Shown here piece by piece: positions 3-55,677 of a stretch of DNA of 64,000 nt. Made by a program: the position numbers and the translations under genes. Position 1 is the first letter of the stretch; each line of letters begins with the position of its first letter. The DNA comes from Synechococcales cyanobacterium C42_A2020_086. Its GTDB lineage: Bacteria; Cyanobacteriota; Cyanobacteriia; Elainellales; Elainellaceae. Under the pieces are notes generated by a model. The model ran no database searches, was not told where the DNA came from, and saw only the letters and a program-made list of their open reading frames with translations. The DNA lies in assembly GCA_015272325.1 (NCBI GenBank), contig JACYLU010000001.1, positions 186,001 to 250,000 on the forward strand, written 5' to 3'.

Positions 3-1970
3 GGGCGGGAGTTGGCGCAATTGCCCACCGAGTTAGCAGGTGAACCCGTCTATCAAGTCGTGCTGCTGAGCGCTAACAACGAAATTTCGCGCTGCCATGC
101 CCTGATTATGGCTATCGACGGGCAGATTATTTTGGAAGACCGCAGCACCAATGGCACTCATCTCAACGGCGAACGGATTACCCGCGCTCGTCGCCCCCTC
201 ACCAGCGGCGATACCCTTCAGATTGGCACCTACACCATCACCGTTAGTGTGCTACAGCCCATCGCCGAAACGCAGGATTTAAACCGCAGCTCAACGATCA
301 TTTTCAATCCCGACACCACGATTGTGTCTGCCGATCAGGTTGCTCCTGAGCCGGTGCGCCAGTCCACCATTATTTTTGACCCCGACACCGATCGGCTAGA
401 GCCGCAGGCCCCACCTCCCGGTCGGGCTGTTACCACGCGCAATGTCTTTCCGCCGGCGCGATTGTTTGCGGAAGAACGGGTGTCGATTTCGGCCCTGCAC
501 GCTACCGGCTTTCCAGTCGAGGAAACCGAGTATGCAGCCCTCGGCGGCGGCATGGGTTCTTTTGTTTGGGTAGACACGCTGCGGATTGCCGGCGTCAAAC
601 CCGAGCGGATCACCGTGCTCAGCATTCAGAAGAAACCCTACGGACGCTACGAGACGCTGCTGAAAAATTGCCAGATTCCTCGCTATAAACGCATTCGCTC
701 GGGATCAGACTCTTGTCCCGACAACATCTGGGGCTGGCCTGGCTACGCGATCCGGGAAGCCTGGCGCGATACCTTCTCCGGGCGCGTTGGGGCGGCACTG
801 GGCTATCTGTGGCAGGTATTTGCCGAACCGGCCTTTGCCGACACCTACACCCCGATTGCCGACAACGTGTTCAAATCCATGGACCGAGAAGCGGACCGTA
901 TTGGCTGGGACCGCATGGTGCGTTACGGCAGCATCCGCAGCATCCGCAAAACTGAAGACGGGCGATACGTCATTGCCTATTCGGCGACTCGACCGCCCGG
1001 CCCTCCCGACTACCGTTTTTTGGTGGCGCGCTATGTGCATCTCTGCACCGGCTATCCTGCTATCAAGCTGCTGGATGACCTGCAAGACTATCGCGAACGC
1101 ACTGGCGATGTGCAGACCGTCGTGCATGGCTATGAACCCCACGATCACGTCTTTGAACAGCTCGAACGCAAAGGCGGCACGTTGGTGATACGCGGTTTTG
1201 GCATTGTCGGCTCGCAAATCATGGATCGGGTCTACAAAGCTCGCATGGTGAATCCCAGAATTTTCGTGGTCCACCTCAGCCGGTCACCCAAGCTGGGGCA
1301 GCGGTTTGGTCGAGCTAAGCGCTATGTCGAGAATCACTGGGAATTTCAGCCTTTTAACTGGCCCAAGGGAACCTGGGGTGGCGATATGCGGGCGATGCTG
1401 GAAGCGGCAGATCCCCTACGGCGACGCGAGCTGCTAGAAGCCTGGGGCGGCACCACCACCGCTAGCCGAGGACCATGGCGCAAAATCATCAACCAGGGTC
1501 TACGCGAAGGCTGGTACACCATCAAGTTTGGCACCGTTGACAAGGTGGAACGCAGCCCTGATGGGAAGCCAATCACCTTTGTCAGAAGCAACGAATACCA
1601 CGGCATCGATAAGATTGAAGCCGATTTTGTGATTGACTGCACCGGGCTGATTTCCGATCCCCGCGAGCAACCGCTGCTGAATGACCTGATCACCCACTAC
1701 AACCTAGATCTCAATCCCCAGAAGCGGCTGCATGTTGAAAATGACTTCGAGATCGCCAAAATGCGCAATGACCGCGCTCGCATGTATGCTGCCGGCATCA
1801 TCACCCTGGGTGGTCCCTATGCGCCGGTAGATACCTTCCTGGGATTGCAATACGCGGCCCATCGAGCGGTTGAGGCTCTGGCGACGCATCGAGCACCCGG
1901 CGTCAGGTATATCGAGGGGCTGGGTTCTCTCTGGCAATGGGTGAAATGGGCGACGAACCAAGCTCCCTAG
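3..1970 (+). CDS. FHA domain fused to FAD/NAD(P)-binding oxidoreductase (5' end outside window)
   Basis: The reading frame is open to the window edge. The Gly-Arg-Glu at 3-11 fits the conserved Gly-Arg that begins an FHA domain, so the true start lies upstream and the TTG at 12 is not the start. FHA hallmarks follow: SRCHA, then RSTNGTHLNG. A linker carries the motif STIIF(N/D)PDT twice (about 288-385). The rest is a flavoprotein: a GGGMGS dinucleotide loop near 547, a second Rossmann loop GFGIVGS near 1197, and VIDCTGL near 1630, the arrangement of two-dinucleotide-domain flavoproteins such as N-hydroxylating or Baeyer-Villiger monooxygenases. FHA domains bind phosphothreonine peptides, so phospho-signalling control of a redox enzyme is inferred. 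The substrate is unknown. The stop is followed 69 bp later by the start of a small membrane protein. Confidence 0.8.
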   Translation, partial: GRELAQLPTELAGEPVYQVVLLSANNEISRCHALIMAIDGQIILEDRSTNGTHLNGERITRARRPLTSGDTLQIGTYTITVSVLQPIAETQDLNRSSTIIFNPDTTIVSADQVAPEPVRQSTIIFDPDTDRLEPQAPPPGRAVTTRNVFPPARLFAEERVSISALHATGFPVEETEYAALGGGMGSFVWVDTLRIAGVKPERITVLSIQKKPYGRYETLLKNCQIPRYKRIRSGSDSCPDNIWGWPGYAIREAWRDTFSGRVGAALGYLWQVFAEPAFADTYTPIADNVFKSMDREADRIGWDRMVRYGSIRSIRKTEDGRYVIAYSATRPPGPPDYRFLVARYVHLCTGYPAIKLLDDLQDYRERTGDVQTVVHGYEPHDHVFEQLERKGGTLVIRGFGIVGSQIMDRVYKARMVNPRIFVVHLSRSPKLGQRFGRAKRYVENHWEFQPFNWPKGTWGGDMRAMLEAADPLRRRELLEAWGGTTTASRGPWRKIINQGLREGWYTIKFGTVDKVERSPDGKPITFVRSNEYHGIDKIEADFVIDCTGLISDPREQPLLNDLITHYNLDLNPQKRLHVENDFEIAKMRNDRARMYAAGIITLGGPYAPVDTFLGLQYAAHRAVEALATHRAPGVRYIEGLGSLWQWVKWATNQAP

Positions 1971-2039: not shown

Positions 2040-2486
2040 ATGACTCCAACTCTGTTTGGCCGCTGGCAAACGCGCATTTTTCTGCTCGCCACCGTTGGCT
2101 TGCTCATGACTTGGGCTTTCTCGACTGGCTTTCTTGGCGTGCATCCGGGTTCAGTCTATTTTTGGATCCTCTTTTACTTCGGTCTAATTGGCTTGCTGTG
2201 GGATGTCCTCTACAACTATCTGCAGCAGTTTATGTGGGACCACGACTGGCCAGGCGTTTTCCAGTTCTTTGCTGCTATTGCTGAAGGGATTCTGCTAGCC
2301 ATTCTCAGCAGACTCGGTGTGTTGCCGTTTGTTGACGGTGCCAGTTTCAACCTGCGGGATTTCCTGCTGCACTACAGCGTGACTTGGCTGGCCGTCTACC
2401 TGTCTTCCTGGGTAGTGATGCGGCTGCTGTTCCCCCGCTGGCGCTTTCGTGGCGGTGAATGGATTGGCAAATGGCGGCGAGCCTAG
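2040..2486 (+). CDS. Small polytopic membrane protein, unknown function
   Basis: The product is 148 residues starting at ATG 2040. The frame is open back to a TTG directly after the previous stop, but the ATG gives a normal N-terminus (MTPTLFGRW) just before the first membrane segment. Four hydrophobic segments can be seen, around residues 12-30, 40-60, 75-95 and 110-130, and the C-terminus is rich in Trp and Arg (RWRFRGGEWIGKWRRA). I do not recognise a named family. It sits 69 bp behind the FHA-flavoprotein on the same strand and may be cotranscribed, which would make it a candidate membrane partner; that link is inference from position only. Confidence 0.6.
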   Translation: MTPTLFGRWQTRIFLLATVGLLMTWAFSTGFLGVHPGSVYFWILFYFGLIGLLWDVLYNYLQQFMWDHDWPGVFQFFAAIAEGILLAILSRLGVLPFVDGASFNLRDFLLHYSVTWLAVYLSSWVVMRLLFPRWRFRGGEWIGKWRRA

Positions 2487-2836: not shown

Positions 2837-3164
2837 TTCGCTCCACAGGCTTCAGATTACTTTTTTTATTCAGCATTTGCCTATTGCAAGCACTGAACTT
2901 TAACCGAATCAAGATTTCTCAGCGTTTACTTTCATTTACTTTGATCTACTTTATTGCTCTTTTACTGAATCTTCTTAACCACTTGATGGTTCTAATCACT
3001 CGATAGGTATTTTGTGTACCGCATGCAGAACTCTCTCTAAATCTACTCAAGTCTCACCGATAATTCACTCGGCAAACGCGGAGCTGTAAATCCTTCGCGT
3101 CTAGTTTGCATTGCCGTATGAATACTCATTTGTATTTTCACCTGATTTTCAGCAGGAGATCGCT

Positions 3165-5963
3165 ATGGCAAATCCACGTTCCATTAACCTGTTTGAGCTG
3201 CTAAACGGTCAAGATGGCTTCTACATTTTGGGCAAGTTTCCCTCACTGAATCCGCAATTTGGCACCGGGCAGTTTGGCTTCTCGGTTAGTTCTGCTGGCG
3301 ATGTCAACAATGACGGTATTGATGATTTACTGATTGGCGCTCGCCATTCCCCGGTTGGCAGTGTACCCCTTGCCGGCAAGAGCTTCGTGATTTTCGGGCA
3401 GTCGGGGCTGGGGGCCGGCGGCAGTTTTGATCTGGCGTCGCTGAACGGCAGCAACGGGTTTGTGATCAACGGGGCTAGCAACAACGAGCGCGCTGGGCAA
3501 GCCGTTAGCTCAATTGGGGACTTCAACAACGACGGCATTGACGATTTGGTGATTGGCTCCTATGCCCTCAACACCTTTGAATATCGAGTGGGCGGTGTCA
3601 CCGATAGCCTCACGAGCATCGGGCGAGCCTACGTGATTTTTGGGCGCTCGGGCGGCTTTGCCACAAGCCTCAATCTCAGCGAGATCACGACTGATCAAGA
3701 ATACCAACCCGGCGTTTCCGAAACCGTCAACCTGGACTACCGCAAAGGCTTTTCCATCCGCAGTTTGTTCGACAACACCGGCTATGGACAAGGATTAGCG
3801 GGGTTTTCCGTCAGTTCTGCCGGAGATATTGACCGCGATGGCTTTGATGACCTGCTGGTGGGGGTTCCCGGACCCAGCAGTCGTAGTCCCCGCAGTACGC
3901 TTCCGGGTGAAGCCTGGATTGTTTATGGTCAAAATCCTAATCCTAGAAGTGCCACTCCTTTCGATCGCGATCGTGAGTTCTCTCGCTCGCTGCGGGTCAC
4001 CTACCTCAATGGCATCACCCCCAAAAATCGCACTGGCAATTCGGTGAGTTCGGCGGGCGATGTCAATGGCGATGGCATTCCCGACGTGATTGTGGGCGCA
4101 CGAGATGCCAACAGCAACGCTGGCGAGAGCTATGTCGTGTTTGGCGGCAGTGCGGTGATTCCGGGTTTTAATCCTCTCCGAGGGGCGCCCGACTCTACCA
4201 AGAAAACCGTGCAGTTGAATACGCTCAACGGCAGCAATGGCTTCCGAATCAGCGGTCTGGATAGCGATACCGACAGCAACGGGCCGGATTCGGGCGAGCG
4301 CTTGGGCTGGGCGGTTAGCACGGCGGGCGACCTCAACGGCGATGGCTTTGACGATGTGATCGTGGGCGCACCCAGCATTACCAACTCCCCAACGGATCAG
4401 CCGGATACAGCAACCGATCCAAACCAGCCTGGCAAAGCCTATGTGATTTTTGGTCGAGCGTCTTTTGCAGGCAGTGTGGATATTTCGAGCGCAGCAGCGC
4501 TGAGCGGTCGGGGATTCATCATCCACGGCGTCAACGGCGGCGATGGAGTCGGTTTTGCGGTCGCCCGTGCGGGAGATATCAACGGCGATGGATTTGACGA
4601 TCTGGCAATCGGAGCACCCTTTGCCGATGCGGGCAGTGTGTTTGGCAATGCCGGCGAAACCTACATTCTCTACGGTAGTTCGACAATCGGAGCAGGAGGC
4701 CGCTTCAACCTAGCGGACCTCAATGGCAGCAATGGCTTTTTGCTGAGGGGAACCTTCTCGAACGATCACTCGGGTTGGGCGGTGAATCGAGCGGGCGATG
4801 TTAACAACGACGGCGTGGACGACCTGGTGATTGGCGCGGTTGAAAGAGGCACTTCGCCGGGAAAAGCCTACGTCATGTTCGGCAATGCCACTCCCAAGGT
4901 GGATCTCAACGGCGGCGATGCCGGGGTCAACTTTAGCACCACGTTTGTGATTGGCGGCAGTGCAGTACCCATTGCTAAACCAGGAGCACTGATCGTGACG
5001 GATGCCAACGACACCACCCTCAGGGGCGCTACTGTGACCATCACCAACCTGCTGAACGGTGCTTCCGAGCAACTCGCCGCCAACACCGCCGGCACCAGCA
5101 TCACGACTGCCTACGATAGCAGCACGGGCGTTCTCACCCTCCGTGGCACAGACAGTCTGGCGAATTACCGGCAGGTGCTGCAATCCCTCACCTACCGCAA
5201 CACAGCCGCCGCACCCAACACCACAACCCGTACCATTCAGATTGTTGTTAGGGATGACGGTATCCACAGCAGCCATAGCGCTCCCGTTCAAGCCCTAGTT
5301 GCCCTCAGGGCCATGCCTCCCGGTGGCTCCGGAACGGGTTCGGGAACTGGCTCGGGCGGCTCAGGCGGCTCGGGAACTGGCTCAGGCGGCTCCGGCAGTG
5401 GAGGTACCGGATCTGGCACGCCTATTCCCCGACCCCCTCAACCTTTGAAACTGATTGGCACCAACAAGCGCTCGGTGCTCACTGGCGATGCCGGTAACGA
5501 TATTCTGCTCGGGCGGGGCGGCAACGATCAGCTGAGCGGGGCGGCTGGTGATGATCGGCTGAATGGCGGCACAGGCAACGATAGGCTGGATGGCGGCAGC
5601 GGCAACGACCAACTCCGTGGCGGTCCTGGTCGCGATCGCTTTATCTTCGGCGCTCAGAAATCCTTTAGCGAAGAGCAGCTTGGCGTGGATCGCATCCTCG
5701 ACTTCAACCCCAAGCAGGATCAGATTGTCCTCGACCGCTCTACCTTCCGGGTGCGACGGCAGCCCACCGTAGCTGTGGTGCCAACCCTCCGCCGCGCCCA
5801 AACCAGCGTTGCCCAGATCACCTATGTGAGTTCTACCGGCGGGCTTTACTACAATGCCAATGGCGTGGCAGGGGGGTTTGGCCTAGGCGGACCGTTCGCC
5901 ACGATTACCTCCAAGGCGGCAGGCGCAGCGCTGTTGGCAGAAAATTTTGTGACGCAGCCGTAA
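3165..5963 (+). CDS. FG-GAP beta-propeller protein with C-terminal RTX calcium-binding repeats (secreted)
   Basis: I start it at ATG 3165 (932 aa) because AGGAG lies 6 nt upstream; an upstream in-frame TTG at 3111 has no such site. Seven FG-GAP/integrin-alpha-like calcium motifs of the form D(V/F/L/I)NxDGxDDLxIGA occur near residues 45, 120, 222, 299, 389, 471 and 545, enough for one seven-bladed propeller. A beta-sandwich-like region (about 575-715) follows, then a Gly/Ser/Thr linker (about 718-752), then RTX nonapeptides of the GGxGNDxL type (about 772-825) and a C-terminal tail. There is no N-terminal signal peptide, which fits type I secretion through a C-terminal signal. Role in adhesion or surface layer is inferred. 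No transporter gene is nearby. Confidence 0.88.
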   Translation: MANPRSINLFELLNGQDGFYILGKFPSLNPQFGTGQFGFSVSSAGDVNNDGIDDLLIGARHSPVGSVPLAGKSFVIFGQSGLGAGGSFDLASLNGSNGFVINGASNNERAGQAVSSIGDFNNDGIDDLVIGSYALNTFEYRVGGVTDSLTSIGRAYVIFGRSGGFATSLNLSEITTDQEYQPGVSETVNLDYRKGFSIRSLFDNTGYGQGLAGFSVSSAGDIDRDGFDDLLVGVPGPSSRSPRSTLPGEAWIVYGQNPNPRSATPFDRDREFSRSLRVTYLNGITPKNRTGNSVSSAGDVNGDGIPDVIVGARDANSNAGESYVVFGGSAVIPGFNPLRGAPDSTKKTVQLNTLNGSNGFRISGLDSDTDSNGPDSGERLGWAVSTAGDLNGDGFDDVIVGAPSITNSPTDQPDTATDPNQPGKAYVIFGRASFAGSVDISSAAALSGRGFIIHGVNGGDGVGFAVARAGDINGDGFDDLAIGAPFADAGSVFGNAGETYILYGSSTIGAGGRFNLADLNGSNGFLLRGTFSNDHSGWAVNRAGDVNNDGVDDLVIGAVERGTSPGKAYVMFGNATPKVDLNGGDAGVNFSTTFVIGGSAVPIAKPGALIVTDANDTTLRGATVTITNLLNGASEQLAANTAGTSITTAYDSSTGVLTLRGTDSLANYRQVLQSLTYRNTAAAPNTTTRTIQIVVRDDGIHSSHSAPVQALVALRAMPPGGSGTGSGTGSGGSGGSGTGSGGSGSGGTGSGTPIPRPPQPLKLIGTNKRSVLTGDAGNDILLGRGGNDQLSGAAGDDRLNGGTGNDRLDGGSGNDQLRGGPGRDRFIFGAQKSFSEEQLGVDRILDFNPKQDQIVLDRSTFRVRRQPTVAVVPTLRRAQTSVAQITYVSSTGGLYYNANGVAGGFGLGGPFATITSKAAGAALLAENFVTQP

Positions 5964-6076: not shown

Positions 6077-7524
<1,448 letters not shown>

Positions 7525-7989
7525 TCAAGCACTGGTTTTTAAGCTTTCTTTCGGCATGACGGTCTGTTTCCATCCAGTGAGGAGTTTGATGTCCTCAATT
7601 CTACCCAGGAGAGCTTGAATAGCCAGCGGCAGACTGTCTTCAACGTAGGGTGGAGATAGCTGAAATCCCAGGCGCTCAAGCGATTGATGGAGCGTCTCCA
7701 CCTGAGCTAGCCAAACGTGCCGCTGCTGATCAGCCGCTTCTCCGGTCTCCAGCGAGACTAACTCCAAACATCGCCGCATGGTGAATAACTCCTGCAATAC
7801 CTGATCGCGAAGCACCTCTACTTCAGTATTCAACCGCAAGACTCGTCTCGATTCCCACCATTGCATAGCCTGTTGCGTTCCCCATAGAAACGCAATGGTT
7901 TGCAGAGCTTGGATAATACCGACGATGAAAGCCACCATGAGAAACGATCCGAGTTTATGCGGGTGCAGCACTGCCTGCGTTGAATTCAA
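7525..7989 (-). CDS. Membrane-anchored coiled-coil protein, resembles N-terminus of a cyanobacterial histidine kinase
   Basis: The product is 154 aa from ATG 7989. It has one N-terminal membrane segment (about residues 14-36, LGSFLMVAFIVGIIQAL), then a helical region with LNTEVEVLRDQVLQELFTMR and LERLGFQLSPPYVEDSLP. This layout recalls the N-terminal part of cyanobacterial sensor kinases that precede a HisKA/HATPase core, but no H-box, N-box or G-box follows; the frame ends at 7525. It may be a stand-alone remnant of such a kinase or a complete small protein. It borders a cluster of broken genes, which favours decay. Family assignment is from memory of the pattern and is tentative. Confidence 0.45.
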   Translation of the reverse strand: MNSTQAVLHPHKLGSFLMVAFIVGIIQALQTIAFLWGTQQAMQWWESRRVLRLNTEVEVLRDQVLQELFTMRRCLELVSLETGEAADQQRHVWLAQVETLHQSLERLGFQLSPPYVEDSLPLAIQALLGRIEDIKLLTGWKQTVMPKESLKTSA

Positions 7990-8126
7990 ATCAGCGGTTT
8001 ACCGACCTAGCTTTACCTTACCGAACTACCCTCGCCCAAACATCCGCTCTAGCCGCAAGAGCTGTGGCGCAAAACGGTCAACCAAATCTCTGAAACAGGC
8101 AGGAAGTCTTGCAGTTTTCTGCAATG

Positions 8127-28088: not shown

Positions 28089-29420
28089 CTACTGCTTACG
28101 CAGGCGCAACATTTCTGCTACAACCGCCATGCTTTCTTCGTAGAGCACGTCGCGTCCCGAGCGCTGGAGCTGCTGGCTCATCAGAAACTCGGCCTTTTGG
28201 TCGCTAGTGGCTGTAACCTGCTCAGTTTTGGCAATCTGGGCACCACCTTTGGCTTCCATGCGCATGCAGCCAGTCGTTTCTGAGCAGATAATCGTGTTGC
28301 AGTCTGCCTTTGGATTACTGGAGGTGAGGCTCAGCCCGATTAAATCCCCGATTACCTCACCCGGATCGCCGATCGGCACGCCGGCCAGCTCGGCCTTAAT
28401 TAATTCCCCGTTGGGTCCCTGCAGATCAATATGAACCAAATCATAGAGGTCGCGGGTTTCGCTATAGGAAACAGGGGTCCAGTCGAGCCGGCTAGCAAGC
28501 CAACCCAAAAACATCAGCGCCTGCGCCGGGTTGCCCTTTTCGTAGTCGATCATCACCTGATCGATGTCCTTTAGGTGTGCCCGTCGTTCTGGCGGGTCGT
28601 AGGCTGCTGCTGTCAGTTCTTGCCAAGCGCCGAAGCGGTGCCAGTTCAAGTCAGCTACGTAGGTACCGGCTTCGATCAGCTCGACCATCTTCAGGAATTC
28701 TGCTTCTGGGTCGGTATAGTAAGACGAGTCGAGGACAATGCACTGGCAACAGTCCACTAGTTTTTTAAATAGCTCTTGTTCAGGGTTGGGAGTTGCCTTC
28801 CACCAAACAAACTTCGGCAGATCCGGAATTAACAGCGACGCTGCCACATCGCCAACGCGGTTTAGCGCCGCCTTCGTGCCCCGCAGCGTAATGTATTCGC
28901 AGCACATCAGGTTAGCGCTAGATTTTTTCAGAATCGGGCAATAGGCCGAAACCTGCGCCGTCACGCCTTGATCTTCGCCAAACGTGGGACAGAGCGTAAT
29001 AATGCGGCAGGGGTTTTGGGCAGCAATGGCATCGCTCACACTCAGGCCCCGCAGGTCGGGATTGGTCAGCTTCGCCCGCTCTGGGGGTAGTTTGGCGTAT
29101 TCTTCCCGCAGGCGGGTCAGCGTCGCAGGATCCACTCGTCCAGTAATTGGCAAACCGTACGCTTTCTGGGCGTCTTTGATTGCGTCCTTCATCATCGGAC
29201 CGTTGACGCCTTCAATGTCGCCCGTGTAGAAGCCGAGGATCGCCAAGAGCTGTTGGAACTCCTCGGGTTCGTAGATCACCATGCTGAAGGTCGAGGCGCG
29301 GGTAGCTACCGGAACCACGTGATCACCAACCTGCGCTTGCCAAATCTGACTCAGTTCGGCTTCGATCTCGTCGATGGAAATGTCTTTGGGTTTTTGGAGA
29401 GTAACAAGGGGAGTGCTCAT
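28089..29420 (-). CDS. opcA: Glucose-6-phosphate dehydrogenase activator OpcA
   Basis: OpcA binds and activates cyanobacterial G6PDH. I start at ATG 29420 (443 aa, MSTPLVTLQKPKDISIDEIE); the frame is open further upstream only through the zwf-opcA gap and zwf end. Residues about 52-105 (FQQLLAILGFYTGDIEGVNG onward) look like a peptidoglycan-binding-type three-helix fold. The C-terminal part contains Cys374, Cys379 and Cys385; the 379/385 pair has the same six-residue spacing as the thioredoxin-sensitive Cys pair reported for Anabaena OpcA. Last gene of the operon, 49 bp after zwf. Confidence 0.93.
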   Translation of the reverse strand: MSTPLVTLQKPKDISIDEIEAELSQIWQAQVGDHVVPVATRASTFSMVIYEPEEFQQLLAILGFYTGDIEGVNGPMMKDAIKDAQKAYGLPITGRVDPATLTRLREEYAKLPPERAKLTNPDLRGLSVSDAIAAQNPCRIITLCPTFGEDQGVTAQVSAYCPILKKSSANLMCCEYITLRGTKAALNRVGDVAASLLIPDLPKFVWWKATPNPEQELFKKLVDCCQCIVLDSSYYTDPEAEFLKMVELIEAGTYVADLNWHRFGAWQELTAAAYDPPERRAHLKDIDQVMIDYEKGNPAQALMFLGWLASRLDWTPVSYSETRDLYDLVHIDLQGPNGELIKAELAGVPIGDPGEVIGDLIGLSLTSSNPKADCNTIICSETTGCMRMEAKGGAQIAKTEQVTATSDQKAEFLMSQQLQRSGRDVLYEESMAVVAEMLRLRKQ

Positions 29421-29469
29421 GGGTGGGGTAGAAAAGGAAGAATAAGTTGGACTCACAGCAGCCAGCTTG

Positions 29470-30999
29470 CTATAGTCGTCGCCAGCGTCGACCGTCGCGG
29501 TTAAGCAACAGTTCGGCTTCAATCGGTCCCCACGTTCCCGCTTCATAGAGGGGAATTGCATCGGGATCGGCGGGGGCATCCCAGACGTTCAGCAACGGGG
29601 TGAGAATCCGCCAAGAAGACTCCACTTCATCCCCTCGAGTAAACAGGGTCTGGTCCCCCAACATGCAGTCTACCAAGAGGCGACTGTAGGCTTCGGTATT
29701 CGGCTGACCAAATGCATTTTCGTAGCTGAAATCCATTTCCACCGAGCGTGTGCGCAGGGAACTGCCGGGCGTCTTCACCTCCATGCGCAGAGAAATGCCC
29801 TCATTGGGCTGAATCCGTAGCGCCAGCACGTTGTTATTCATCTGTTTTGCTGCCGACTGAAACATCAGGAACGGCACCTCACGGAAGCGAATTGCAATCT
29901 CCGTTACCTTCTTAGTCATGCGTTTGCCAGTACGCAGGTAGAAGGGGACCCCCTGCCAGCGCCAGTTATCGATCATCAGCTTCAGGGCGGCATAGGTGGC
30001 AGTTGTCGATTCTGGGCTTGCTCCTTCTTCTTCCCGGTAAGCAGGCACAGGTTTACCGCCCATCCAGCCTTTGGTGTACTGCCCACGCACCGCAGAGAGA
30101 TCCAGCCGATCTAAATCGGCCAAACGGGTCGCCTGCAGCACCTTCACCTTCTCATTGCGAATGCTGTCGGCTTCCAGGGAGTTGGGGGGTTCCATTGCCG
30201 TCAGGCAAAACAACTGCATCAGGTGGTTCTGCACCATGTCCCGCAGTGCCCCTGCCGTTTCGTAGTAGCCCGCTCGACCCTCCAATCCGACGGTTTCAGC
30301 AACTGTGATCTGCACATGGTCTACAAACTGCCGGTTCCACAGCGGCTCAAAGATGGCATTGGCAAAGCGGAACACCAGCAAATTCTGCACGGTTTCTTTG
30401 CCGAGGTAATGGTCGATGCGGTAGATCTGCTCTTCGGCACAGGTATTATGAACCACACGGTTGAGCAACTGTGCCGAGCTAAGATCTTTACCGAAGGGTT
30501 TTTCAATCACCAGGCGATGTTTGCGAGGATCTGTCAGCATTCCAGCTGCTCCCAACTGCTGAATCGCTTCCGCAAAAAAGCGGGGTGCTACCGAGAGGTA
30601 AAACACGCGATTGCCCCGCGTGCCGCGCTGCTCGTCGAGTTCGGCTAAAAACGCCTTTAGCTTCTGGTAGCCCTCAGGATTGTCAATGTCTGCCGAGAAA
30701 TAAAACAGCCCTTTGGCAAACTCATCCCAGATTGCCTCTTTGCGTAGACCGCCGCCAAACTCTTCTACGCCTTCCCGCATCTGCTCACGGAAGTAGTCAT
30801 GGCTCCACTCCCGTCGGGCAACGCCCACAATCGTCAGTTCTGGAGGCAATCGCCGCTCTAGTTTCATCTGGTAGAGAGCCGGGACCAGTTTGCGCTGGGT
30901 TAAATCGCCCGAGGCGCCAAAAATTACCAGAATTTGCGGTTCGGGAACGCGATCTTGCTGCAGTCCAACGCGAAGCGGGTTTTCAAGTAGAGTGACCAT
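29470..30999 (-). CDS. zwf: Glucose-6-phosphate 1-dehydrogenase
   Basis: It oxidises glucose 6-phosphate with NADP as the first step of the oxidative pentose phosphate pathway, the main night-time and heterocyst source of NADPH. I start at ATG 30999 (509 aa); a TTG eight codons upstream is less likely. [10 protein letters not shown] (28-37) binds the coenzyme, and RIDHYLGKE (194-202) is the substrate and catalytic signature. Cys187 and Cys445 fall exactly at the numbers given for the redox-regulated cysteines of Nostoc-type G6PDH, so reductive inactivation in light is expected. It is the third gene of the operon. Confidence 0.97.
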
Positions 31000-31085
31000 G
31001 GGCAGTGTATAGAGTTGAAACAAACTTTAAGGGGGGAAGGCAGAGCCGTAGCAGGACGGCTCCACAGGGCAAATCATCTAGGCAA

Positions 31086-32231
31086 TCACGATACCGGGGT
31101 CAGCTGCTGAATTTTCTCCTCGAGAGAACGCATCAAGGCATCAAACGGTTGTACAAACTTCTCAATGCCGTCGATCAGCAGTTCTGCCATTACTTGGTCG
31201 AGGTTGATATCCACATCCGGGTCTTTCAAGCTTTCGATCAGGTGATAGGCTTCCGGCACGTGGGTTTCAATGCGAGATTGCACGTCGCAGTGATCGGCGC
31301 AGGCGTCGATCGTGGTTGGCGGTAATGTATTGACCGTATCGGGACCGATCAGCTCATCCACATACATGACGTCGCTGTATTCAGGGTTTTTGGTGCTGGT
31401 GCTAGCCCACAGCAGCCGCTGCACGTTTGCTCCTTTGGCGGCGAGCTGCTTCCAGCGGTCGCTCTCGACAATTTTCTTGTACTCCTGATAGGCAATCTTG
31501 GCGTTGGCAATTGCTACTTTACCTTTGATTGCCAGCAGTTTCTCGCGGGCTTTCATGTCGTCAATGCCCTTCAGCTTTTCGTCGATTTTGGCGTCGATGT
31601 TGCTGTCGATGCGGCTGAGGAAGAAGCTGGCCACCGAAGCGATCTTGCTGATATCTTCGCCTTTTTCAACGCGGGCTTCCAATCCCCGAATGTAGGCTTT
31701 AGCGCTGCTAACGTAGCTATCTACCGAGAACAGCAACGTCACGTTGACGCTGATCCCGGCAGCAATCACCGCTTCAATGGCTGGCAAACCTTCCTGAGTG
31801 CCCGGAATCTTGATCATCACATTCGGGCGGTTGATGGCGGCATGATAGCGCTTCGCCGCTTCGATGGTCGCTTCCGTGTCGTGGGCAACGGCCGGAGGCA
31901 CTTCGATGCTGACATAGCCATCGAGTCCGCCAGTTTGCTTATACACCGGCATCAAAATATCGCAAGCTTGGCGAATGTCGTCAAACACGAGAGACTCATA
32001 GATTTCATTCACCGACTGACCAGCCCGGATGCCCGCTTCAATCGCCTCGTCGTAAACGGCATTACCGGCAATGGCTTTTTGGAAGATCGCTGGATTCGAG
32101 GTGATGCCGCAAATGCCGCTCGTTTCCACAAGCTGCTTCAATTCGCCCGACTGGATCAGATCCCGAGATAGGTTATCCATCCAGATGCTTTGGCCGTACT
32201 GTTTAATCTCAAGCAAGTGATTTGCTGTCAT
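31086..32231 (-). CDS. tal: Transaldolase
   Basis: It moves a dihydroxyacetone unit between sugar phosphates in the non-oxidative pentose phosphate pathway. I choose the second Met (ATG 32231, 381 aa) because AGGAG lies 9 nt upstream of it but only 3 nt from the first Met at 32237. Lys141 in MIKIPGT is the Schiff-base lysine. SGICGITSNPAIFQKAI and LLWASTSTKNP are family blocks of the long (TalB subfamily 2) form found in cyanobacteria. It is the second gene of the operon. Confidence 0.95.
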   Translation of the reverse strand: MTANHLLEIKQYGQSIWMDNLSRDLIQSGELKQLVETSGICGITSNPAIFQKAIAGNAVYDEAIEAGIRAGQSVNEIYESLVFDDIRQACDILMPVYKQTGGLDGYVSIEVPPAVAHDTEATIEAAKRYHAAINRPNVMIKIPGTQEGLPAIEAVIAAGISVNVTLLFSVDSYVSSAKAYIRGLEARVEKGEDISKIASVASFFLSRIDSNIDAKIDEKLKGIDDMKAREKLLAIKGKVAIANAKIAYQEYKKIVESDRWKQLAAKGANVQRLLWASTSTKNPEYSDVMYVDELIGPDTVNTLPPTTIDACADHCDVQSRIETHVPEAYHLIESLKDPDVDINLDQVMAELLIDGIEKFVQPFDALMRSLEEKIQQLTPVS

Positions 32232-32328
32232 GGCCATCTGCTCCTTCTCAAACGTTCACTCGTTCTTTCAACCTTGGTTGCTTCAACCTTAGATCTCGGT
32301 TGGTAACGACTGGATCATCCTTTGGACG

Positions 32329-33405
32329 TTAATCTTTAGATGTGAGGATAGGACGATCTCGCTGCTCACGGTTGTGTTCTTGAATAAAGGATTCAACTAA
32401 AGCCACGTCCTCTGGGCTACCAATAATTAGCGGCGTCCGGGCATGCAGCTTTTCAGGAATTACGTCCAGAATCTTTTGCGTACCGGTGCTGGCGCTGCCT
32501 CCGGCTTGCTCGATCAAAAAGGCTAGCGGAGCTGATTCATAGAGCAGGCGCAGTTTACCTTCCGGCTTCTTGATCGTTCCCGGATAGAGGAAGACCCCAC
32601 CTTGAAATAGAATTCGGTGAATATCGCCCACTAACGCACCGCTGTAGCGGGCTGTGTAGCCTTCGTGACGATGCACATAGCGGGTGTAGTCGCGAATTGA
32701 TTCTTCCCACTGCCAGAAGTTGCCCTCGTTGACGCTGTAGACTGGTCCATGCTCGGGAATCCGAATGTTTTCGCTCGATAGGATAAACTCTCCCAAGCTG
32801 GGATCGAGTGTAAACGCATGGACGCCGCGCCCAATCGAGTATACCAGCATCGTGCTAGGACCATAGAGCACATAGCCCGCCGCAAGCTGCTGATGCCCAT
32901 TTTGCAGCAAGTCCTGTGCCGTGCCGTCTAGATCATTACCTTCTTGTCGCCGAATCGAGAAAATCGAGCCGACGTTGAGGTTGATATCCACATTCGAGGA
33001 GCCGTCGATTGGATCGTAAAGCAGCGTGTAGCGCCCAATCGGGCAGTTCTCGGGAATATAATAGGGCTGCTCCATCTCCTCAGAGGCTAGGCGGCATACC
33101 AAGCCGCTTTGCTCAAACACCGAGATGAACACCTGATTGGCATAAACATCCATTTTTTTGACGGATTCGCCCTGCACATTCGTCCGCCCAGTAAAACCCA
33201 GCGCGTCTTCCACTAGCCCGGCTCGGGTCAAGCGGCGAGCAATCAGCTTGGCGGCCAAGGCAATTCGGTTCATCAGTGCGCTCAAGTCTTGAGCTTCTGC
33301 AGAAAAACTTTGCAGTTGCTGCAACACATGACGCGATAGGGTTGTACAGTCCCGATCTAGGGCATGTTGATGATCCAGGGCTAACGGTTGATCCACTTCA
33401 GTCAT
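32329..33405 (-). CDS. fbp: Class I fructose-1,6-bisphosphatase
   Basis: It hydrolyses fructose 1,6-bisphosphate in gluconeogenesis. The product is 358 aa from ATG 33405. Metal-binding Glu109/Glu110 (ASEEME) and DPIDGSSN (131-138) are present, along with GGVFLYPGT and the substrate-binding KLRLLYE. Cyanobacteria also carry a bifunctional FBPase/SBPase (glpX type) for the Calvin cycle; this class I enzyme is the form linked to zwf and opcA. It is the first gene of the operon, so the promoter lies in 33406-33789, shared with divergent pfkA. Confidence 0.96.
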
Positions 33406-46426: not shown

Positions 46427-48076
46427 ATGAGCTATTGCTTAAACCCAGCCTGTCCTAATCCCGAAAATGCGATCCATGCCGAACGGTGTCAGGCGTGTGG
46501 CTCGAAGTTACTTTTGTACAACCGCTATCGGGTCCTGCAATCCTTGGGCCAGGGGGGCTTTGGGGCAACCTTTCTAGCCCGGGAGGAAGCGCTGCCTGGT
46601 CACCCTTACTGCGTGATTAAGCAACTGCGCCCAGCTGCCTCTTCACCACATGTGCTGCAAATGGCGCGTGATTTATTTGAACGCGAGGCCAAGACCCTGG
46701 GCAAAATTGGCAATCATCCCCAAGTGCCTCGATTGCTCAACTATTTCGAGGTGAATCAAGAATTTTATCTAGTCCAGGAATATATTAGTGGCTCGACGCT
46801 GCAGCAGGAAGTGAAGCGTTCTGGTCCCTTCAGTGAAGCGGGGGTGAAACAGTTTCTCAGCGAAGTCCTGCCGATGTTGCAATACATCCATAGCCAGCAG
46901 GTGATCCACCGCGATATTAAGCCCGCTAACTTGATTCGTCGCGCTCAGGACCGCAAGCTGGTGCTGATCGATTTTGGGGCGGTAAAAGACCAAGTCAACC
47001 CAACTCGCATGGGAGCAACCGAGCAAACTGCACTGACGGCTTACGCCATCGGGACACCCGGCTATGCTCCTCCCGAGCAGATGGCGATGCGGCCAGTCTA
47101 TGCTAGCGATATCTACGCCTTGGGGGTTACCTGTCTATACCTGCTGACCGGGAAATCTCCTAAAGATATGGACTATGACCCTGCTACCGGGGAGATTCTC
47201 TGGCGCAACCAGGTGCATGTCAGTGACCACTTTACTGATGTGCTGAAAAAGATGCTGGAGGTGTCGGTTCGCCATCGCTACCAACAGGCTAACGATGTCT
47301 TGCGGGCGCTAGATCTAGAACCCTACCTCGACAGTTTGGCACGCAGCATGGTGAGTCAGCCCAGTCGCCCGTCTCGCCAGAGTCATGCAGCAAGTGCGGG
47401 TGATTCAGCCGAAGGCACCCTGAATTCTATGCCGTCTTCACCGACTGCCCGGATGGCAGCTGCAATTCGAGCTCGCCAAGCCGCAAAAGCGGTCGGGGAT
47501 GTCGCTCGCTCAGATGCGACTAGCTTGCAGTCTGGCTCGCTGCGCCGCCCAACTCTTGTCCAAGGTGCTACTGCGGTGACAGCCCTGCACAGCAAGGAGT
47601 CCCCGAGTCGTGATTCGGCAACACGGGCTGTAATGGCCAACTCTGCGCGGCTCACTGCAGAAGAGCTACTCTCTGCCTATGCAAAGGGCAAGCGTGATTT
47701 TACCTGCCACGACCTCAGTGCTCTGAATCTCTCGAAAACGAATCTTTCAGGTGCCAACTTTCATCAGTCCACGTTGCAAAAAAGCAACCTGCAAGGTGCC
47801 AATTTACTCAACGCTGACTTTGGACGAGCTAGCCTTAGTCAGGCACTGCTGAAGAATGCTAAGCTGGCCCGAGCCTATCTCAGCCATGCCGATTTAGCGG
47901 GTGCCGATCTGCGCGGAGCTGACTTGAGCTACGCCTATCTCAGCCATGCCAACCTACGTGGGGCTAACCTGTGTGGAGCCGATTTAACGGGTGCCAAAGT
48001 GTCAGATGAGCAGCTAGCTATGGCCCGCACCAATTGGGCAACGGTTCATCCCAGCGGCAAACGAGGGTTATGGTAG
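46427..48076 (+). CDS. Ser/Thr protein kinase with N-terminal zinc ribbon and C-terminal pentapeptide repeats (SpkB-like)
   Basis: The product is 549 aa from ATG 46427. A zinc ribbon (Cys4, Cys9, Cys21, Cys24) precedes a eukaryotic-type kinase: GQGGFG (41-46), Lys65, HRDIKPAN (161-168), DFG (182-184) and GTPGYAPPEQ. A Ser/Ala/Arg-rich linker (about 315-400) leads to LTAEELLSAYAKGKRDF and about 20 pentapeptides, ending TVHPSGKRGLW. This order matches cyanobacterial SpkB, implicated in oxidative stress and motility in Synechocystis. The pentapeptide module has a free-standing relative at 11302-11859. Partners and substrates are unknown; an FHA reader protein lies at the left edge of the window. 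Confidence 0.93.
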   Translation: MSYCLNPACPNPENAIHAERCQACGSKLLLYNRYRVLQSLGQGGFGATFLAREEALPGHPYCVIKQLRPAASSPHVLQMARDLFEREAKTLGKIGNHPQVPRLLNYFEVNQEFYLVQEYISGSTLQQEVKRSGPFSEAGVKQFLSEVLPMLQYIHSQQVIHRDIKPANLIRRAQDRKLVLIDFGAVKDQVNPTRMGATEQTALTAYAIGTPGYAPPEQMAMRPVYASDIYALGVTCLYLLTGKSPKDMDYDPATGEILWRNQVHVSDHFTDVLKKMLEVSVRHRYQQANDVLRALDLEPYLDSLARSMVSQPSRPSRQSHAASAGDSAEGTLNSMPSSPTARMAAAIRARQAAKAVGDVARSDATSLQSGSLRRPTLVQGATAVTALHSKESPSRDSATRAVMANSARLTAEELLSAYAKGKRDFTCHDLSALNLSKTNLSGANFHQSTLQKSNLQGANLLNADFGRASLSQALLKNAKLARAYLSHADLAGADLRGADLSYAYLSHANLRGANLCGADLTGAKVSDEQLAMARTNWATVHPSGKRGLW

Positions 48077-53633: not shown

Positions 53634-54201
53634 GGAGCACCAAGAGAACCCATCAAAGCGAAATTCATAGGAGATTAGGTAAAACTTTATGTTTTTTGGG
53701 GTCGCTATGCTTGATGATGCAATGCTACAGGGATAAATTGATCGTTTTTTTGCTGCTCCTATTAGCCAAATCCCATTGGCAGAATTAAGAATTCACGCTA
53801 TCAATAGCAGGCACTACTTTAATTATTCGCTGTGAGGTGGTTACCCTATGATGTTCGACAAAAGAAGTTTCAGACAGATCGACTGAACGCTTCGAGTGAT
53901 TTGAATTATATTGTTAAACCTTGTTAAGTAAACCTACCTCATGGGCTGCCCGATCTAATTAACCATCTGTCAGCCATCCGTTTAGCCATCTTAGCCATCC
54001 GTCAAGGCTCTGGAAGCCGTTCTGTCTGGGTTAAGAAATTGATATGGCAATTGCCCAACCATTCGTTAGAATTTATCCCAATGTACTGAACGTTGACTAG
54101 ATTTAACCTGGTGGAGGAATTTGGCAGCCCGTGTTAAACCTTAGGATTTTTGTTCTATCGCATTTTCGTTCTTTCGCTTGTCTGACTCTAACGCACATCC
54201 G
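53634..54201. other. Divergent intergenic region between ribD and the phosphatase gene
   Basis: About 570 bp. No coding frame is accepted. A degenerate run of (T/C)AGCCATC(CGT/TT) units occupies about 53971-54004. Promoters for both flanking genes are expected but not located. Confidence 0.5.
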
Positions 54202-55677
54202 ATGACTGCTGTGCCCGCCCCCCGACAGCCCTCTCCATCGTCTGATTTTTCTGGTGGTACCACGCCGCCAGACATTACACCTGTGTTCGCATTGAAGGAA
54301 TTGGTTTCGCGGCTGCATCGAGAGCAAAACAAAATTCAGGATTTGCTAGCCTCCCTGGGGTTTGCACTGCGGAGTTTTAAGAATCTCAATCAGTTTTTAG
54401 AGCTGACGCCACTCATTGCTAGTCGCGTTACCGATGCTGATGGCGGTGCCTTGGTCATGTACAAACCCAACGGGCAGATCCGCCTGGAACGGCTGCATTG
54501 TCAAGATAACAACCATTGCCAAGATGTGCGAGGAGCCATCGAAGCAGCCACTCGTCAGCTAACGGCGTCTTCACCTTCCTACGGTAAGCTTGCCCCTCAC
54601 CACAACCGAACTGCGGATCTCGATCAGCGTGTCAGCCACAACCTCAGTTCTACTGGTGTTGCTGTGCAGCTATTTGGCACCGCCATCTTGACGAAGAATG
54701 TTGAGCGCGGCCGGCTCTATGTGTTTAGCCGCGACCCCGAGTACACTTGGACCGAGACTCGACAAAAGCTGGTGCGGCTCGTGGCAGACCAAACCGCCGT
54801 TGCCATTGAAAACGACGAGCTGACCGTTGAACTCCGCAAAAAAGAGCGCCTAGACCGCGAACTGGAAATTGGTGCCGAAATTCAGCATCAGCTCTTGCCG
54901 CGCCAGTGCCCAACTATCCGAGGAGTAGAGCTAGCTGCTCGCTGTAAGACCGCCAATCGCGTAGGAGGAGATTACTACGACTTCATTCCTGCTAATTACG
55001 ATCAGTTCCGCGCCAAAAAATCTGCGCAGCGCGTTGAGCCTAAGTCCTGGAGTCTAGCCATCGGAGATGTTATGGGCAAGGGCGTTCCGGCAGGGCTGAT
55101 TATGACCATGCTGCGTGGCATGTTGCGGGCAGAAGTGCTGAATGCCCATTCCCCTGCTCGCATCTTGCAGCATCTCAATCATGTCATGTATGCCGATTTG
55201 GAAAACTCCAATCGCTTCGTGACCTTGTTTTACTCCGAGTACAACGCCGAGACGCGCATCCTGTCCTACAGCAACGCTGCCCACAATCCGCCGCTGCTTT
55301 GGCAGGCTGCTACCCAAACCATTAAGCGGCTAGACACTTTTGGGATGCTGATCGGACTCGATATGGACAGCAAGTACCACGAGGCGCAGGTGCAGCTCCA
55401 CCCCGGCGATACGCTGATTTACTTCACCGACGGCTTTACCGACGCCGCAAACCAGAGCGGCGAACGCTTTGACGAAGAGAACCTAGAGCGGCATTTTCAA
55501 TGGGCGTGCCGTCATTGTGATACCCCTCAAGCTATTTTGGAATATTTGTTTAACCAGGTGCAGCAGTTTATCGGTGCCGATCGACACAATGAAGACGACA
55601 TGACCCTGATCGTGATGCAGATCAAAGACGAGCCATCTCCCGCTTCAACGGAAGCACCTGCTGCCCCTCAGGCTTAA
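54202..55677 (+). CDS. GAF-SpoIIE (RsbU-type) protein phosphatase
   Basis: I start at ATG 54202 (491 aa); a TTG eight codons upstream is the alternative. Residues about 30-215 form a GAF-like sensor (LASRVTDADGGALVMY is reminiscent), ending in LVADQTAVAIEND. A coiled segment precedes the PP2C/SpoIIE domain: LEIGAEIQHQLLPRQCP, GGDYYDF, AIGDVMGKGVPAGLIM, AHNPPLLW, YFTDGFTDA and DDMTLIV. It should dephosphorylate an anti-sigma-factor antagonist or similar phosphoprotein. It is soluble. No sigma/anti-sigma gene is near. Confidence 0.92.
   Translation: MTAVPAPRQPSPSSDFSGGTTPPDITPVFALKELVSRLHREQNKIQDLLASLGFALRSFKNLNQFLELTPLIASRVTDADGGALVMYKPNGQIRLERLHCQDNNHCQDVRGAIEAATRQLTASSPSYGKLAPHHNRTADLDQRVSHNLSSTGVAVQLFGTAILTKNVERGRLYVFSRDPEYTWTETRQKLVRLVADQTAVAIENDELTVELRKKERLDRELEIGAEIQHQLLPRQCPTIRGVELAARCKTANRVGGDYYDFIPANYDQFRAKKSAQRVEPKSWSLAIGDVMGKGVPAGLIMTMLRGMLRAEVLNAHSPARILQHLNHVMYADLENSNRFVTLFYSEYNAETRILSYSNAAHNPPLLWQAATQTIKRLDTFGMLIGLDMDSKYHEAQVQLHPGDTLIYFTDGFTDAANQSGERFDEENLERHFQWACRHCDTPQAILEYLFNQVQQFIGADRHNEDDMTLIVMQIKDEPSPASTEAPAAPQA

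Follow-up and report, generated by a model that had tools for sequence, protein, structure and literature searches.

Does the gene at the left edge of this window, the 64-kb stretch of DNA analyzed here (C34:186001-250000), join a phosphothreonine (pThr) reader to a redox enzyme in one polypeptide, and does it belong to a system that ties Ser/Thr phosphorylation to redox chemistry? Our main reading, to which we give a probability of roughly 0.55, is that the fusion gene stands at the centre of a redox module gated by phosphorylation, which is conserved and apparently undescribed.

One gene for an FHA domain and a flavoprotein core

The window opens inside the fusion gene (window 3..1970, plus strand). 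Upstream DNA places its ATG 76 bp 5' of the window, from which a single frame of 681 codons runs to a stop at window position 1970 (C34:185925-187970 with the ATG included), residues 1-26 of the protein being encoded outside the window. The first-pass annotation had described an FHA domain fused to a flavoprotein and had feared that upstream sequence might instead reveal a separate FHA gene and a frameshift. That two-gene reading is out: ATG to stop lies in one frame, and the other FHA gene at the locus (PF00498, E 9.8e-9) is separate, ending 50 bp 5' of the fusion gene on the same strand. The fusion is one intact ORF.

The FHA domain occupies window 3..230 on the plus strand (residues ~27-102). 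It is the sole Pfam domain over cut-off in this protein (PF00498, E 1.3e-11, 45.2 bits against a cut-off of 20.7), and its top PDB sequence match is Rad53 FHA1 (E 2.7e-5). In FHA domains the contact or scaffold positions for pThr are an Arg, a Ser, an Arg or Asn, a His and an Asn. The domain was read directly in 54 non-identical cyanobacterial proteins, 40 from chosen loci and 14 more among 30 loci, and these pThr-contact residues stay while much of the domain drifts: R28 is found in 53 of the 54, S55 and H58 in all, and R56 and N76 in 51 each. This pattern supports the earlier view of the domain as a predicted pThr reader.

The flavoprotein core follows (window 510..1967, plus strand). Its FAD-type motif, GGGMGSF (residues 207-213; window 543..563, plus strand), has Gly207, Gly209 and Gly211 in 54/54 relatives and the following Ser in 53/54. 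The NAD(P)-type motif, GFGIVGS (residues 424-430; window 1194..1214, plus strand), is equally rigid, with Gly424, Gly426, Ile427, Val428 and Ser430 in all 54, as are Thr573 and Gly574 of CTGL (window 1638..1649, plus strand), which forms the core's second "TG" motif. From these invariant glycine motifs we infer that the core binds FAD and NAD(P)H; the loss of flavin-binding residues that had been raised as a way for the fusion to fail is not seen in the flavin-type motif.

The same arrangement recurs. A profile of the core (E up to 1e-20) finds the flavoprotein in 91 of the 376 genomes covered for this class; these belong to 47 of the 155 genera represented. Its 98 match rows include two genes that are split, with two rows each in two frames (G111, G278). 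Among unsplit copies, 91 of 94 lie in open frames of at least 649 aa, the exceptions being G240 (599), G249 (559) and G009 (529), and the FHA domain was read in the 54 proteins above; the domain order noticed in the window is therefore found in other genomes, and a chance fusion can be set aside. In a tree of 82 tips the cyanobacterial copies fall together with a node support of 0.195 under the rooting used, and the actinobacterial clade, with L168 left out of it, has support 0.984; a single fusion event is possible, and the tree shows no more than that.

Some copies depart from the common form. One of the 91 long frames (G239, C33:37119-39116) has an in-frame TGA inside the fusion gene. Two cyanobacterial fusions of 809 and 840 aa (L159 and L160) carry, by eye, two tandem FHA domains before the same core, and for L159 Pfam likewise counts two FHA stretches ahead of the core. 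The idea of a plasmid-borne gene was rejected: the one match in a plasmid collection is a Nonomuraea gerenzanensis replicon of 11.85 Mb, hence chromosome-like.

The linker holds two Thr-containing motifs, STIIFNPDT (window 291..317) and STIIFDPDT (window 363..389), both on the plus strand. The pattern [IVL]xF[NDH]PxT occurs in 34 of the 54 linkers, whereas 500 shuffles of these linkers gave 0.05 on average and never more than 1, relatedness not being allowed for in this comparison. A relaxed pattern occurs in 36 of 54 (shuffled mean 0.58, maximum 4), at a density of 9.9 per 1000 linker residues versus 0.06 in the other ORFs of the same loci. The first-pass annotation had proposed that the two motifs could be phosphorylated and bind the FHA domain in cis. 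The two copies are real and the motif is conserved; however, 18 of the 54 linkers lack even the relaxed form, and among its 41 copies the preceding Thr (of "ST") is present in only 27, against 39 for the last Thr. Binding of the linker by the FHA domain in cis is possible for this protein and is no family-wide rule.

The motif has a possible parallel in GarA. The likeness of ST-I-I-F to the ETTS phospho-motif we take as a lead. In the GarA/OdhI switch, which belongs to a kinase pathway as the fusion may, an FHA domain likewise has a short Thr-containing motif next to it, but GarA stands alone as an FHA protein and has its motif N-terminal to the domain, whereas the motif of the fusion is C-terminal and varies at its first Thr. 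The ETTS motif of GarA, in a passage of PMC12321487, has two regulatory Thr residues.

Fold of the core and its membrane partner

What kind of flavoprotein is the core? By sequence, the libraries give little: Pfam lists two models, both below cut-off (E 0.007 and 0.18), NCBIfam lists none, and the best PDB match is not significant (E 0.77). A structure model (m0dc942ae4d06) covers the 655 residues encoded in the window. Confidence in the core is mostly high, with block means of 80-96 and some weak stretches, the worst at model residues 429-459 (38-46). The FHA part is poor (pLDDT block means 33-55, residues 1-80) because the alignment rows are without FHA, and no structural claim on the FHA domain is made from it.

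The best Foldseek match of the core is SidA (6x0h; E 8.2e-18, target TM 0.65), and rows 1-48 are all N-hydroxylating monooxygenases, with target-normalised TM values of 0.63-0.74 that peak in DfoA. By VIA, the highest Z is to YpdA (7a7b; Z 24.4, 317 residues, 3.6 A), with DfoA within 1 Z of it (5o8r; Z 23.8, 393 residues, 3.6 A). One FMO, 4a9w, gives Z 22.4 (323 residues, 3.5 A); thioredoxin reductases and FMOs lie within a few Z units of YpdA. By fold of the model and by motif, then, the core is a two-dinucleotide-fold (Rossmann) flavoprotein, as the earlier reading of the sequence had it. Since YpdA and DfoA are equal in score and the FMOs and thioredoxin reductases are close, the fold does not pick the chemistry.

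Two kinds of enzyme deserve comparison. The fold of YpdA and of thioredoxin-reductase-like flavoproteins is like that of the core, but the core has ~490 residues to the 323 of YpdA, carries a fused FHA domain and has a membrane partner. It also lacks their kind of invariant Cys: in 15 aligned cyanobacterial and actinobacterial core sequences no Cys is invariant or nearly so, although Cys264 is kept in 53 of 54 cyanobacterial sequences. The want of a near-invariant Cys across both phyla speaks against a disulfide reductase.

The N-hydroxylating enzymes SidA, PvdA, DfoA and DesB share the two-dinucleotide-fold architecture over ~390 aligned residues, and the invariant glycine motifs and two TG motifs of the fusion family are a further likeness to N-hydroxylating flavin monooxygenases. 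The core could be a flavin monooxygenase of N-hydroxylase or FMO type with a role in biosynthesis or detoxification and a lipid-phase substrate; the membrane protein described below would then be its anchor or substrate carrier, and the FHA domain would serve only for localisation. The Foldseek ranking and the 393 residues aligned with DfoA favour such an enzyme. However, YpdA, thioredoxin reductases and FMOs score as described, identity to the N-hydroxylating monooxygenases is 10-15% in the listed rows, and the fused FHA domain and membrane partner set the fusion apart. No N-hydroxylating monooxygenase profile matches the core in Pfam (E up to 5) or NCBIfam, searches in which the HMMER filters drop very weak matches. 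Moreover, the recurrent neighbours that were identified are kinases, FHA proteins and transporters, with no biosynthetic enzymes among them, several actinobacterial clusters (for example 8, 9 and 10; 13-16 loci) lying outside that identification. We regard the monooxygenase reading as rather unlikely, and keep to a flavoprotein of the proposed redox module.

The most constant feature of that module is a small membrane protein. The gene that begins 69 bases 3' of the fusion gene (window 2040..2486, plus strand) encodes 148 aa with four transmembrane helices predicted from hydropathy, and its model has a mean pLDDT of 84.7. A profile of this protein (E up to 1e-5) matches 91 of the 376 genomes, and these are exactly the 91 with the flavoprotein: neither profile matches a genome that the other misses. 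A hypergeometric calculation puts the log10 probability at -89, a figure that ignores relatedness and is to be read only as "very strong". The two genes lie within 5 kb of each other in 77 of the 91 genomes; of the other 14, four carry both on a single contig at a distance above 500 kb and ten on different contigs. Close linkage is therefore not enough to account for the co-occurrence. The five genomes with two complete flavoproteins each (G115, G186, G193, G211 and G288) also have two membrane genes each. Another (G159) has two membrane-gene matches against one flavoprotein, the second match being at a contig start.

Around the chosen cyanobacterial loci, tblastn finds the membrane gene within 10 kb in 34 of 40. 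Across 17 aligned proteins the invariant residues include an N-terminal GRxQTR, a WxxDWP in the stretch joining helix 2 to helix 3, and one Glu within helix 3. Foldseek gave no PDB match better than E 1.6 for its fold, a result that is uninformative for small helical proteins. The four-helix protein is the constant genetic partner of the flavoprotein in the genomes checked. The first-pass annotation does not mention this partner, and the separate FHA gene 5' of the fusion lay beyond the DNA that it saw.

Actinobacterial relatives and neighbouring genes

Relatives of the pair occur in a second phylum. A collection of genomes, scanned with an alignment that has a Nonomuraea homologue at its head, gave at least 555 relatives; the best 80, all actinobacterial, were kept, a ranking that favours relatives of Nonomuraea. 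Their flavoproteins are not fused to FHA: no match to the FHA queries lies 5' of the flavoprotein in any of these 80 loci, and the ten longest of 79 actinobacterial flavoprotein ORFs match no Pfam family at E up to 0.01. The membrane gene, sought by tblastn with several queries per family, adjoins the flavoprotein gene in 79 of the 80; in the exception, L054, 11 bases remain before the contig end. In the same searches, an FHA/zinc-ribbon gene is found in 56 loci, a Ser/Thr kinase in 42, a CPA2-type antiporter in 38 and an MFS transporter in 18. A separate, even draw of 296 genomes of the phylum yielded the flavoprotein in nine, although one of these (L161) is the centre genome, which the 80 loci include as L072. 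In the other eight, with flanks of ~1.5 kb or less, the membrane gene is adjacent in 8/8, a kinase is present in 5/8 and an antiporter in 2/8.

FHA/zinc-ribbon genes go with the flavoprotein in both phyla. In the window's host, the separate upstream FHA protein carries a zinc-ribbon-like motif at its C terminus, and 36 of the 40 cyanobacterial loci have an FHA ORF of this zinc-ribbon cluster upstream in the same orientation, at a gap of 0-1094 bp. The ribbon pattern is present in 32 of 37 such ORFs in cyanobacteria and 41 of 42 in actinobacteria. In the printed examples the ribbon precedes the FHA domain in actinobacteria and follows it in cyanobacteria; the modules were therefore shuffled while remaining with the system. 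Archaea offer a comparison, in that a passage of PMC7016017 places zinc-ribbon/FHA proteins in an operon that also encodes a calcineurin-like phosphatase and a vWA protein. As described there, the archaeal proteins resemble the module in having a ribbon fused to FHA among phospho-signalling genes, but differ in their partners, which in the module are the flavoprotein and the membrane protein. A gene for an endonuclease V-like protein of ~221-259 aa (by eye) lies 5' of the FHA/zinc-ribbon gene in 9 of the 40 cyanobacterial loci (L134, L137, L138, L139, L142, L146, L149, L152 and L154).

The actinobacterial FHA arm has gaps. Of the 24 loci with no FHA/zinc-ribbon match, eight (L054, L055, L057, L058, L059, L065, L069 and L103) have ~1.6 kb of sequence or less after the match. 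In others, namely L041-L051 (Nonomuraea and [Actinomadura] parvosata), L056, L062, L064, L066 and L116, the absence is not simply excused, and the FHA arm is therefore not universal. L041-L051 have neither an FHA/zinc-ribbon nor a kinase match, and in eight of them an MFS transporter follows the membrane gene. Directly 5' of the flavoprotein at L041 is a DUF4253 protein (7182-7997; PF14062, E 1.8e-37), of a cluster found in 10 of the 80 loci.

Kinases, too, recur as neighbours. A kinase lies within 10 kb in 13 of the 40 cyanobacterial loci, about threefold the ~4 expected by chance from a baseline of 7 to at least 52 kinases per genome in 36 genomes. Together with the actinobacterial count, this makes the kinase link suggestive in cyanobacteria and stronger in actinobacteria, the baseline having been computed for cyanobacteria. 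Kinase identity in the examples is from Pfam, with one cyanobacterial kinase and one cyanobacterial antiporter so confirmed. The first-pass annotation had also pointed to a Ser/Thr kinase and a phosphatase in the window. Both are present, a kinase at 46427-48076 and a SpoIIE-type phosphatase at 54178-55677, but they lie 44 kb and 52 kb from the fusion gene, and we rejected them as evidence for its regulation. That kinase has pentapeptide repeats at its C terminus (PF00069, PF00805). The tie between Ser/Thr phosphorylation and redox chemistry proposed at first pass gains instead from the second phylum, where flavoprotein, FHA and Ser/Thr kinase genes are linked.

Could the flavoprotein be a subunit that regulates a CPA2 cation/proton antiporter, in the manner of KefF on KefC, with the kinase and FHA domain as a gate? 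According to a passage of PMC10224563, KefF is an oxidoreductase and 20-kDa ancillary subunit required for full KefC activity, and a flavoprotein can therefore serve as an antiporter subunit. The module resembles KefC-KefF, as described there, in encoding a flavoprotein oxidoreductase together with a CPA2 antiporter. Antiporter genes are nearby, in differing gene orders, in both phyla, and Pfam identifies one example from each (PF00999, E 3e-51 and 1.6e-45; TIGR00932, E 4.3e-43, below cut-off). However, a constant flavoprotein-antiporter pairing of the Kef type is not found: the antiporter is near 38 of the 80 actinobacterial loci and within 10 kb of just 5 of 40 in cyanobacteria, with none at the other 35, the window's locus among them, and an MFS transporter match takes its place in 18 of the 80. 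KefF is, moreover, a 20-kDa ancillary protein where the flavoprotein here has two folds, and the constant partner here is the four-helix protein and not the antiporter, which is optional. We regard the antiporter-subunit reading as improbable. The weakest alternative, that the FHA domain is a passenger kept for structure or dimerisation that reads no pThr and has kinase neighbours by coincidence, can draw on the actinobacterial flavoproteins that exist without a fused FHA domain, but retention of the pThr-contact residues in 51-54 of 54 proteins and the association of FHA/zinc-ribbon genes in both phyla make it very improbable.

If the FHA domain acts in trans in actinobacteria, what might it read? 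Two unfused actinobacterial flavoproteins (L164, L165) start with ETITFNP-like residues and a third (L167) with KTVTFNP, near the cyanobacterial STIIFNP, and five from Pseudonocardia (L103, L104, L107, L113 and L117) have DTIxLPG at the N terminus. Scored by eye and post hoc, ETITF- or DTIxLP-like stretches are present in 11 of 87 parsed actinobacterial N termini (89 loci, L161 being the same as L072). The ETITFNP-like stretches would fit a ligand read in trans, and we note them as a lead from sequence likeness; against it, most actinobacterial N termini are without the motif, many of them despite an FHA/zinc-ribbon neighbour.

A proposed phosphorylation-gated redox module

In the module that we propose, the flavoprotein would dock on the four-helix membrane protein and act there, with NAD(P)H and FAD, on a substrate or electron acceptor. 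The input would come from a Ser/Thr kinase that phosphorylates a threonine of a partner or of the flavoprotein's own N-terminal linker. The FHA domain would read this mark, in cis in cyanobacteria and by way of the zinc-ribbon protein in actinobacteria, and the reading would switch docking or activity. The analysis shows the fusion, its conservation, the co-occurrence, the neighbours and the fold of the model; from these we infer flavin and NAD(P) binding, membrane docking and kinase input through FHA, and control of ion antiport by the module in some lineages is a guess.

A bolder version can be stated, which we think unlikely. It would make the proteins a new class of signalling flavoenzyme with an ancient core of flavoprotein and four-helix protein, the latter of no recognised fold, in which membrane electron transfer is switched by Ser/Thr phosphorylation via FHA (fused in cyanobacteria, in trans with a zinc ribbon in actinobacteria) and cation/proton exchange is tuned to the NAD(P)H state. 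The phospho-ligand, in cyanobacteria and actinobacteria alike, would be a short motif of the type [ES]TIxFNP that precedes the flavoprotein.

The building blocks of the proposed module are of known kinds. Their combination, the flavoprotein family, which has no profile in the libraries searched, and the constant membrane partner are apparently undescribed within the literature searched. Among the papers listed by full-text searches that covered few subscription papers, judged by titles and the openings of abstracts, none describes a same-chain fusion of FHA and flavoprotein or such a module. The passages of PMC7880944 and PMC7291507 that bear on the subject list an FHA protein, A1557/slr1624, and make a general remark on FHA.

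Co-occurrence with a single small membrane protein makes function testable by two knock-outs. Likewise, the module offers a concrete candidate pathway for bacterial Ser/Thr kinases that have no assigned role.

A role in anti-phage defence was considered and rejected, five proteins having matched 0 PADLOC families at E up to 0.001.

Other features were seen in the window and its host. The host has a gene for a protochlorophyllide-reductase subunit, and relatives of its class have this locus too; we take it to be a cyanobacterium. Window 3111-5963 encodes a 950-aa protein with repeated DVNxDG-type motifs and, near its C terminus, RTX-like glycine/aspartate repeats (by eye). At 28089-33405, minus-strand genes for G6PDH, OpcA, transaldolase and fructose-1,6-bisphosphatase are followed by a plus-strand phosphofructokinase gene; OpcA, the G6PDH assembly protein, has an extra peptidoglycan-binding domain match.
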